A stretch of 64,000 nt of DNA. Source: Sipunculus nudus. Its lineage: Eukaryota; Annelida; Sipuncula; Golfingiida; Sipunculidae. The notes beneath the pieces were generated by a model that searched no databases, was not told the DNA's origin, and saw only the letters and a program-made list of their open reading frames with translations. Of this stretch, positions 29,060 to 33,381 are shown one piece after another. The stretch spans positions 17,123,601 to 17,187,600 of the forward strand of contig CM049319.1 of assembly GCA_026874595.1 (NCBI GenBank), in the 5' to 3' direction. The translations under genes and the position numbers were made by a program. Position 1 is the first letter of the stretch. Each line of letters starts with the position of its first letter.

Positions 29060-32000
29060 TTAACAGGTGATACCTGAAATTTAATGAGATTTAAAGATAA
29101 AAGTTATTTCTTTCAAACGTCCATCATTAATTAAACAAAGTCAACGAATAACACAGTTATAACAATACAATTTTAAAAAAAAATACACACAATTACAATT
29201 TAAATTAAAGATTATTTCTAATTCAAATAAAGATTTAAATCTTCATTCTTTAAACATTCTACTTCAAAACAAATCCCCCCATTATTATTTATTGCAACAT
29301 TTTGAATCTAAGGGTTTTTTTTTCGAAAATTAAATATTAAAACTTAATTTTTTAAATTGTAACAGTTTCAGCTGTTAATAAAATTTAAAAATCTAAAAAA
29401 AAAAATAGAGAAAATTATGAATATTTACTCAAAATATAAATGATTTAATCTTAAATTTAATTGATCATTTTAAATAAATCATACCCCTCATCCTCATAAT
29501 CAAATCGTATCTCTGCATCCCCATCCTTATAGCTCGTCGGATCTGGAAGTTGGTGTCACATCCATAATTCCGTGCGCATGCGTTGAACTCGTTCAGCAGG
29601 AGGGTTCGCATTCTGAAACAGAAATATCACATGACCTGTACTGTCACGAAGAGTGAAAAAGCCATGCGAACTGTATTTATATAAAAAAAATCAAATAATG
29701 AACGATTTTATTGAGCTTCTACAATAGGACTGAAAAGTTTACTTCTGCAACAGCATTTGCGTCAATATTTTTTCTGGACGGGGGGGGGGGGGGGGGGGGG
29801 GGCTAATGCTGTATTTGTTCCCTTGGCAGTATGGTAAATACGAGTCACAGTGGAAAGTAGTGTTCGATACGTGGTCCCAGTGGTATTTACCACTGCACTG
29901 GCGAGCTGGGTCTTTCTGGAGTAACCACTTACCGAACTTCACCTTTGTCTACGGCAATCCAGGTGGGAAAATAACGAAACAAAGATTTCTCGAGTGAAAA
30001 CAACAGTTTAAGTGTCAAATTTGAACAAACGTGAAATGAAACATCTAATACTTATAAAAGGAATTCAGTTCACGTTTGTTCCCAATGTTCTCTAAAACCG
30101 CGCTGTGTACAATATTGTGCCATACATCATTTTAAAGGTTATTATCCCCGCAGTGACATAGGCGATATGAAAATAAATAATTTTTAATATACATATAATT
30201 TTGAGTGATTTTTCCATTTTTTTACCGAGCACAGCCGAACTGTCTTCGGCAATTACCGGCATGCGTGCATCCCCTAACACTAAGGACTATTGTTCATATG
30301 AATAACGCTTGCTTTCAATGAGGAATTTGACCCACGTGCGTGGTCAGTAAAAGAGAAAAACACATGTTTCTCGCTTTATGAAATCGAGAGTTCAACCCAG
30401 GAGGATTAATGACAAAACCTAAGTCAAGGTCCCAATTTTAGGAACATGCGTGGGGTGGGGTGGAGTGGTGTCTGGGGTTTCAGGCCTCAAAATTTGTCTG
30501 ATATGATGAAAAAAAAAATTGCGGCGTTTGAAAATGAATACGGACCCTCTGCATGGAATTCCGTTGGGTCCGCTTCTGTTACTTACGAGGTATGCATATT
30601 TCTATTTCTTTCTTCAGGAACAGTTTCCTTGCAACGTACATTTAATAAATCTTTCATGTGTTCCTCACATCAACCTTATCTCTATACGTCCACCGATAGA
30701 ATCCAGTCAAATATCATCGAAAACCTGAATGCCCCCGCGTCTCATTCCGGTTCACAATGTCAACACCATCACTGGCCAGGTCATCAAGGTAAACATACCG
30801 GGGTATAAATTTCTTGCCACGAGGACAGAACCACAAAATGAATGTTAAAAATATTGGAGCGACTGCAGGATCACTCACGCACTGTCTCCACCAGATTATG
30901 AGTTTATACGGACGGACGGTATGATGTTAAGGATTCATGTAATTTAAAAGTAAGTGGCAAAATTAAGATACAAGCAGCTGTACATAGAAACGTTTTCTGT
31001 TCACAGAAGTGTTGTGCCTCAGAGAGGTGCGTGAGTTATTCTGCAGTCGTGCCAAAATGTTTATACATTTCTTATGGAGACATTTTCCCACTGAAAACCT
31101 ATATTTTCTGTAAACTTTTGGATTAAAAAAAATAAGCCAACATTTCACATCTCAGTTAATAAATCTCCCCAACCCCGGCAATAAGCCCGGTATACCGGGT
31201 CTATCAGCTAGTTTATTATAAATCAGTCCCTGTCTGGATACCATGACAACCTAGACATAAAGTCATCGGGCTTTTTTCTGTTAACTGGGTACCGGTACCG
31301 TTTACACCACTAGACATCCGGAGATCACCATCAATCCCGAGGTAACGGATGCAGTATTAGATTACAGTTTATTGACCGGGCTGTCCAGTTGCGTTATTTT
31401 AGGTACATTCCCGTTTGTAATTATATGAACGATGTCTTAATTTAGTGACCTATGACTTACCCGCAGGGAGTCTTGTCTCGTGCAGCCCTCAGCTTGCTGG
31501 AAATGCCCCCGAAGCACCTCACAACGCCCTGCATATCCCAGACACTGCACGACCCTGTAATTATAAATGTATCAATTGTTCGACAAAATTAAGAAATATG
31601 CTATGCATGTTGTAATATGAGGTTGACGTTTAGCCGTATCAAGATATCTTCAATCCGAACAATCCATTGAAGCAGGCAGGCAACCGTAAATATTTCGAAC
31701 CCGGAATTTATTATAATGTTTAGTAACTGGCACGGACTAATACTTCTCTCAGCATGAGCATGGTTTCTCAGCCTTTACTGTTTATATATATATATATATA
31801 TATATATATATATATATATATATATATATATATATATACATATATATATATATATATATATATATATATATATATACAGTTGGGTGTCAATTATCCGAAC
31901 ATTGTTATTTGAAAACCCGTTTATCCGAAATTGATAACTGAGATCAGAAAATTGTCCCGTTTATCAGAATTCCGAATAAAGAAAAACTGTTATAAGAAAT

Positions 32001-33381
32001 TGTCTCCAATACTAGTCAAATTTACAGAGAACCATGGATTAGTAATGCACTCAATTTTTTGGGCACATAAGCAATAATTTCATTGTATTTTGCATGATAC
32101 ATTGGTTAAATTGGGGGAAAACGTAACGAAAATGTTGTGGCAAAGGTTTAATATGAACTAAAGCTGTCTCAATTCGTGTCAGTCAGTACCTGATAGCGCC
32201 GGGTAATTTGCAATCATATATATATATATATATATATATATATATATATATATATATATTAATGTTACTTATGTTATTTGTACTTCGGGCCATATGGCCT
32301 TTCTACAATCAAATCGTTGTTGTTGTTTATATATATATATATATATATATATTATTATGATTATATATATGCATATATACACTTCCTTTATAGAATAGTT
32401 CCTCGATTTATAATAGATTAAGATATATCATCGCCAGACAATGCCAACGCGAGAACGCCCAGCGCTCATGCAAGGGTAGATAGTCCAGAACTGGACTGTT
32501 CGGGGCCATTTTTATAAAATGATACTCTATGTTGCGGCGTGGCATGTTAAGGCAGCCTTATGTCAATCACCTCTTTTATCCACGTTAGATTCCTCCAGGG
32601 TGGCGGCAGCAGTCAGGTCAGCCTCAGCGTTAACCTCAGCTTCAGCAACGGCTTCATTCTGCCGTCAAATATATAGAGTCAGACTGTCAGAGCAATAATC
32701 GATGGATTTTTTTTACCTAAATAAATAAAGAAAATTGAATACAACAAGCCTATAATATAGATAAAAGCCCTTAAGGTACGATGTCCAATCGAATTCCATT
32801 TAATAAATATCAAACAAAAGTCAGGTAATATTATATCTATGAATAATAGGTATATACCATTTAAACCTGGTCTAGAGTTCCCTCTGATGGTACATGTATT
32901 TATGAAATCAGAATCCATTTTTATATGAAATTTTAACATTTTTGAAAATTATAAATATTTAAATGCTACCAAATTTTAAGCAACCGTTAACAGCAAACCA
33001 CTTTATTCATAGTGGGCTAAAATCAGTTTACATGATAACAGGCTCTGTGTATCGCACATGAGTTCGAACCCTCTAAAGGTGCACTCGTTTGTAAGTGAAA
33101 GTGAAACACCTTGAGTGGGGGCCGACCGTAAAAAAATCTCAGCGTTCCTCGGCTGAGATTCGAACTCACAATCTACCAGCTTTGAGCTTCAGGGCCACAG
33201 AGAAAAATATGGTCCTTGGGCAGCCAATCATTCAGAGAAAAACTGCAACCATGCTTAAACATGCTCTTGAAATGCGAATTTAAAACTGAGATAAGCTTAC
33301 CAGTTCTTCCTCGCCGTCAGGGGCAGGTGCAGCCAGAGCTCCGACCAGCAGCAGCGCAGCAACACACAGAAAAACCTTCAT
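29060..33381 (-). CDS. Secreted six-cysteine peptide precursor (134 aa, 5 exons), unknown family
   Basis: Exons on the minus strand: 33,301-33,381; 32,571-32,658; 31,461-31,554; 29,485-29,612; 29,060-29,073. All introns are GT-AG and intron phases 0, 1, 2 and 1 join without a break to give 134 residues. Exon 1 is a signal peptide ([17 protein letters not shown]) and exon 2 an Ala/Glu-rich propeptide ending DKR. The 78-residue remainder starts GSC and has cysteines at mature positions 3, 14, 31, 44, 50 and 78 (spacing 10, 16, 12, 5, 27), the last being the C-terminal residue. A TATA box lies about 59 bases upstream of the ATG, which has A at -3; AATAAA follows the stop. Lys-Arg before the Cys-rich part implies proprotein-convertase processing in the secretory pathway. 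I do not recognise the Cys pattern. Hormone, pheromone, antimicrobial or toxin-like roles are all possible and none is shown. Two relic copies lie downstream on the same strand. Confidence 0.82.
29757..29802. repeat. MITE-like end with G homopolymer
   Basis: GCGTCAATATTTTTTCTGGAC followed by more than 20 G. The same lead-in occurs at 15,570 and (inverted) 24,235. It lies within intron 3 of the six-Cys gene. Confidence 0.6.
29803..31460. other. Intron 3 of the six-Cys gene, partly exon-like sequence
   Basis: Bases 29,828-29,962 (plus) read [12 protein letters not shown] and then [12 protein letters not shown] between a CAG and a GT. Bases 30,519-30,600 contain [11 protein letters not shown], vaguely RT-like. 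Neither can be extended into a gene, and the first region has internal inverted phrases (GGTAAATAC/GTATTTACC), so both are more likely transposon remains. Confidence 0.35.
31784..31990. repeat. (TA)n microsatellite and Tigger-type MITE end
   Basis: Long TA run at 31,784-31,875, followed by CAGTTGGGTGTCAATTATCCGAAC and further TTATCCGAAA-like phrases. Matches the element end at 25,370 in unit B. Confidence 0.75.
32216..32372. repeat. (TA)n microsatellites in intron 2
   Basis: TA runs at 32,216-32,260 and 32,329-32,351 with a short unrecognised spacer. Confidence 0.95.
33045..33205 (-). mobile_element. tRNA-derived SINE, family 2, copy 2 (in intron 1)
   Basis: Shares GGGGGCCGACCGTAAAAAA and TCGGCTGAGATTCGAACTCAC with the copy at 27,046. 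Lies inside the first intron of the six-Cys gene. Confidence 0.65.

Follow-up and report, generated by a model that had tools for sequence, protein, structure and literature searches.

A tandemly duplicating family of genes for predicted secreted six-cysteine peptides in Sipunculus nudus

The question raised by this locus was whether five short exons on the minus strand, the last with only 14 coding nucleotides, make up a real gene, and if so, what kind of peptide it encodes. We analyzed a window of 64,000 nucleotides (C14:17123601-17187600 of the 1.43-Gb assembly) and read the gene, called here gene A, from the window sequence. The original prediction described five exons that join with matching phases into a 134-residue precursor, and the exact splice bears this out: gene A runs from 33381 to 29060, has GT-AG boundaries at all four introns and exon phases of 0/1/2/1, and its 405-nt coding sequence translates into 134 residues. 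The predicted order of a signal peptide, an acidic Ala/Glu propeptide, a Lys-Arg site (residues 55-56) and a 78-residue cationic mature part also holds at the level of the translation. The signal peptide, judged by eye, is probably cleaved after residue 18 according to the Ala-x-Ala rule. The mature part has six Cys with the predicted spacing of 10-16-12-5-27, and its final residue is Cys. The TATA box and AATAAA described previously are both in place, and there is an additional AATAAA within intron 4 (Table 1). Because of this additional signal, a form of gene A that retains intron 4, ends before exon 5 and has five mature Cys only is conceivable.

Table 1. Positions in the window of the features of gene A and of two degenerate copies
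Feature	Position	Strand	Remarks
Gene A TATA box (TATAAA)	33440..33445	-	TATA search and 11-promoter alignment read by eye
Gene A exon 1	33301..33381	-	Signal peptide and beginning of acidic propeptide
Gene A exon 2	32571..32658	-	Acidic Ala/Glu propeptide; terminal Lys-Arg at codons 32577-32572
Gene A exon 3	31461..31554	-	Mature peptide, Cys I-III
Gene A exon 4, 128 nt	29485..29612	-	Mature peptide, Cys IV and V; helix-turn-helix in model
Gene A second AATAAA	29288..29293	-	Within intron 4; possible alternative 3' end
Gene A exon 5, 14 nt coding	29060..29073	-	Gly-Ile-Thr-Cys-stop end; also in copy C and seven complete paralogs
Gene A AATAAA polyadenylation signal	29007..29012	-	3' of exon 5
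Copy B, exons 3-5	22965..25112	-	Decayed; tblastn and alignment
Copy C exon 3-like	21016..21109	-	Open frame with three Cys; acceptor no longer canonical (AG lost)
Copy C exon 4-like	19006..19133	-	Open
Copy C exon 5-like, 14 nt	18665..18678	-	Gly-Ile-Thr-Cys-stop end

Exons 1-4 of gene A have 49-62% G+C, compared to 31-43% in the flanks. We scored coding potential with a codon table taken from one neighboring gene and compared each exon to 4000 open control segments. The fraction of controls that reached the exon score was 0.001 for exon 1, 0.00025 for exon 2, 0.0445 for exon 3 and 0.057 for exon 4. Taken singly, exons 3 and 4 were only moderately above the controls. The score of exon 3 (7.4) was nearly equaled in one other frame (7.2), and exon 5 alone had a negative score (-4.5). 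For the whole coding sequence, the correct frame scored +38.8 and the other two scored -27.4 and -22.2.

The weak scores of exons 3-5 when taken singly, the competing AATAAA in intron 4 and the damage to two neighboring copies (below) are consistent with gene A being a chance assembly of exons or a pseudogene without a product. Seven complete paralogs of equal structure (below) and the constraint on the family argue against this, and we consider it highly improbable. We accept the gene model because copy C and the seven complete five-exon paralogs, with equal phases and a 14-nt last exon, provide decisive support. Gene A, known here from sequence alone, looks like a real gene. Exon 5 as a mere guess was ruled out, since the Cys-stop end recurs in copy C and in the seven complete paralogs. 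The oddest part of the model, the 14-nt last exon, is therefore a conserved feature of the family.

The promoter and 5' UTR of gene A resemble those of paralogs on another contig of chromosome size, C16, in an alignment of 11 promoters judged by eye. Eight of the 11 have a GGTCA motif approximately 20 bases 5' to the position of the TATA box, at about 33460 of the window in gene A (counted by eye). Intron 1 of gene A (33174-33112) shares a 63-column repeat, 89% identical, with the region upstream of copy B (27273-27214). This is perhaps a dispersed repeat.

Beyond what had been predicted, the window also has two degenerate copies, and a cluster of paralogs lies elsewhere in the genome. Copies B and C were found by a scan for the Cys pattern and by tblastn (exons 3-4), and both could be followed by alignment into the region of exon 5. 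They are on the same strand as gene A and consist of the mature-peptide exons 3-5 only. Copy B is, by its lesions, a dead copy: exon 3 has lost its donor and exon 4 its acceptor, exon 4 also has deletions, and Cys are lost. Copy C (21109-18665) has 78 codons without a gap or stop and six Cys at equal places, and 50 of the 78 residues are identical to those of gene A (dN 0.25 and dS 0.79 by NG86; dN 0.29 and dS 0.57 by YN00). In simulations of neutral drift (4000 runs per branch length), the fraction of runs in which copy C had six Cys and no stop was 0.0215, 0.00275 and 0.0005 at 0.2, 0.3 and 0.4 changes per site, respectively. Because neutral simulations seldom keep this state, copy C was probably under constraint for part of its life. 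There was no convincing exon 1 or 2 near either copy in 12 query-region alignments; one exon 1 alignment upstream of copy B (28622-28595) was equaled by only 2 of 100 shuffles. With AG missing from its exon 3 acceptor and without a convincing first or second exon in its vicinity, copy C is probably a recently lost gene, unless another 5' end serves it. We also considered alternative splicing of leader exons 1-2 to B and C as cassettes. This was not supported: two splice sites (the donor of exon 3 and the acceptor of exon 4) are missing in B, and exon 3 of C has no canonical acceptor.

Gene A, itself intact, belongs to a multigene family for small peptides of predicted secreted type, which is tandemly duplicating and has damaged copies. 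The copies in the window and the paralogs on C16 rule out a single-gene curiosity. Searching the genome with the precursor gave at least 15 places with E ≤ 0.001. The window has six of them, namely four exons of gene A and one exon each of copies B and C; the others are on C16, eight in a cluster at 39.598-39.703 Mb and a single one at 47.885 Mb. (Among the lengths of 10 of the 153 contigs, there is a drop from 61.1 Mb for contig 17 to 52.5 kb for contig 18, suggesting that the assembly has 17 chromosomes.) Within 170 kb of C16, tblastn placed 11 loci resembling exon 4 in the cluster, and a twelfth at 47.885 Mb. These 12, with gene A and copies B and C, make 15 loci. Two adjoining 10-kb tiles of C16 were covered by a scan for long frames only. 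Eight of the 15 loci are complete (including gene A), one is nearly complete and six are damaged, and the odd single model thereby becomes a family of genes in one genome that lends itself to testing.

Six of the seven complete paralogs (g37, g45, g52, g69, g81, g125 and gB) are in the cluster at C16:39.616-39.705 Mb and one is at C16:47.88 Mb. All seven have phases of 0/1/2/1, an exon 4 of 128 nt and an exon 5 of 14 nt with Cys-stop. The Lys-Arg is kept in 7 of 7, the mature part has 78-79 residues, and the Cys spacing is 10-(16 or 17)-12-5-27 with a C-terminal Cys. The nearly complete locus, g16, has exons 2-5 and a spacing of 10-18-12-5-27 (counted off the sequence); no exon 1 was found at the locus. 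Across the family, the mature part is cationic, with 78-80 residues and six Cys. Judged by sequence, with the signal read by eye, all eight complete genes belong to the broad class of secreted, convertase-processed, Cys-rich peptide precursors. Four copies in the C16 cluster are damaged: g99 in exon 4 and at exon 5, g112 at exon 5, g117 at exon 2 and in one Cys, and g105 by a stop and loss of Cys in exon 4.

Several other repeats were seen in the C16 cluster. There is a tandem array of 7.3 copies of 126 bp at the start of g52 (L013 3330-4253; C16:39633330-39634253), in which exon 1 and its flank are repeated, and additional exon-1-like fragments lie close to g45, g69 and g81. A long minisatellite-like stretch at C16:39604-39610 kb (L010 and the start of L011) has open frames of Cys-rich repeats and is probably not a gene.

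Pairwise estimates show a family under protein-level constraint. Of the 28 pairs of the eight complete genes, 27 could be estimated for the leader and 26 for the mature part, and dN was lower than dS in every one of these. The charge of the propeptide was -6 to -12 and that of the mature part was +3 to +8 in all eight complete precursors. In an alignment of nine rows (gene A, copy C and the seven paralogs), 11 columns of the mature part were invariant, including all six Cys. Helical-moment analysis of this alignment gave a mixed result, with strong periodicity in columns 5-30 and 57-74 but not between. For the part encoded by exon 3, the periodicity in columns 5-30 was the one measure of two in favor of a helix, the mean helix propensity being near 1. 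Structure prediction was done with exon 4 of gene A alone, aligned with copy C. The resulting 43-residue model is a helix-turn-helix (helices 2-16 and 21-42) with a mean pLDDT of 79.2 and a pTM of 0.50; mean pLDDT ranged from 59.6 to 79.2 over the five models. We infer that the mature peptide may be compact and largely or partly helical.

The original statement that the Cys pattern could not be matched to a described class stands: no relative was found in Pfam, the PDB or the protein collection. Profile searches, named at the outset as a way in which the prediction could fail, gave no clear match to a described family. There was no Pfam match at the curated cut-off for the gene A precursor or the family alignment, and the sole listed match of the precursor (E 0.43, below the cut-off) was on the propeptide. 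Among 5.8 billion proteins, the precursor gave 154 candidates, none with E ≤ 10, and the family alignment gave 258 candidates, none with E ≤ 1. This alignment had five of nine assembled members, trimmed so that the mature part and a short piece of the propeptide remained. Of the two profiles compared to PDB sequences, A2 had no match at E ≤ 10 and A1 matched five Csm3 chains only (E 0.88-0.89). There was no informative match in Rfam, and six family motifs had no match in the full text of open-access PMC articles. At the level of sequence, the Cys framework is unmatched in the libraries searched. The protein collection may lack close kin of the family; its coverage of such kin is doubtful because a control search with a neighboring GPCR met one protein only at E ≤ 1e-10, from an aphid, with 27% identity in an alignment covering 28% of the query.

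The family can be compared to two kinds of helical six-Cys peptides. Attractin of Aplysia is likewise small and secreted, but its Cys spacing is far tighter, and neither Pfam nor the protein collection gave a match. The CHH-ITP hormones of crustaceans and insects have 72-78 residues, six Cys, a helical structure and dibasic processing, but their Cys spacing is approximately 15-2-12-3-8, and there was no Pfam match. Gene A and its paralogs could encode a chemical signal, that is, a pheromone or peptide hormone freed at Lys-Arg and acting on a receptor, with the paralogs as a blend. Consistent with this are the convertase site, the hormone-like layout of the precursor, and an exon 4 and a terminal Cys that are conserved among the complete paralogs. 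However, tandem copies with 6 of 15 loci damaged would be unusual for a hormone, and no Pfam profile of a known hormone or pheromone family was matched. We regard a chemical signal as rather unlikely.

Our preferred reading, held tentatively and as somewhat short of probable, is that the family encodes effectors of host defense or of a mucus type. The signal peptide would be removed in the ER by known pathways, three disulfides would form in the mature part, a convertase of the furin/PC type would cut after Lys-Arg, and a compact, mostly helical cationic peptide would leave the cell. The acidic propeptide could mask the positive charge of the effector until cleavage. The genes would turn over by birth and death, as may be seen in the damaged copies B, C, g99, g105, g112 and g117. 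A report on the CRP-I cysteine-rich peptides of the mussel Mytilus (PMC10138031) describes a signal peptide, a propeptide, dibasic cleavage, a six-Cys mature peptide and paralogs with pseudogenes. The precursor plan, the six-Cys mature part and the damaged paralogs are common to both families. In contrast to the short-looped C-C-CC-C-C knottin array described there, the Cys here are widely spaced (10-16-12-5-27) with a modeled helix-turn-helix, and the mature part is spread over exons 3-5 rather than held in the final exon (PMC10138031). The positive selection reported for CRP-I (PMC10138031) was not seen in our pairwise dN/dS estimates, in which dN < dS, and this weakens the host-defense reading.

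A positively charged product, an acidic propeptide and tandemly arranged copies are also compatible with a pheromone, a reproductive protein or a peptide of venom or saliva, which further weakens a role in host defense. No result firmly separates the defense, signal, reproductive and venom roles. A reproductive or gamete-associated secreted protein (a seminal, egg-coat or albumen-gland product) would be in keeping with a tandem family that has no relatives in the protein collection searched. The pairwise comparisons gave no hint of fast adaptive evolution, which argues against such a protein, and we find it unlikely.

A venom or salivary peptide with a mode of action like that of the cone-snail macro-conotoxins, which are large and helical, is suggested by the layout of the precursor. 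According to the macro-conotoxin report (PMC10437998), Mu8.1 pairs Cys10-Cys51 and Cys57-Cys89, Cys89 being the final residue. Saposin-like macro-conotoxins and con-ikot-ikot are described there as having ten Cys, a 5-residue propeptide and introns all of phase 1, and the authors sought and did not find an ancestral endogenous gene for the saposin-like toxins (PMC10437998). The family shares with these toxins a tripartite precursor, a mature part of about 80-90 residues and Cys as the last residue. In the 78-residue members, Cys I-x40-Cys IV and Cys IV-x5-Cys V equal the spacing of Cys10/51/57 in Mu8.1 (PMC10437998), whereas members of 79-80 residues have x41 or x42. The helix-turn-helix model, made for the exon 4 part alone, may also point this way. 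In contrast to the conotoxins (PMC10437998), there are six Cys rather than ten and phases of 0, 1, 2, 1; the propeptide and signal sequence differ, and we detected no sequence similarity. Because Cys number, intron phases and sequence differ, the resemblance to Mu8.1 is a lead and not membership. The PDB results may also argue against a venom role, which we judge quite unlikely. Similarly doubtful is the proposal that the family represents an undescribed structural class, in which a secreted helical scaffold with three disulfides is closed by the C-terminal Cys from a 14-nt last coding exon. The family would then be an endogenous non-venom counterpart of the saposin-like macro-conotoxins, or be related to them very distantly. 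If such a scaffold were new, it would add a natural peptide scaffold and a candidate defense, signal or venom family.

Other gene-like frames were noted in the window. An intronless 795-residue receptor-like open reading frame (37966-40353, plus strand), 4.6 kb from gene A and divergent from it, has a secretin-family 7TM domain (E 1.3e-25) and a somatomedin-B match below its cut-off; this is the GPCR for which the control search met the aphid protein alone. There is a single-exon syncollin-like frame at 50601-51197 on the minus strand (Pfam Syncollin, E 3.8e-20). Exon-like frames at 58437-58565 and 63598-63723 on the plus strand resemble, by eye, an aldehyde dehydrogenase gene.
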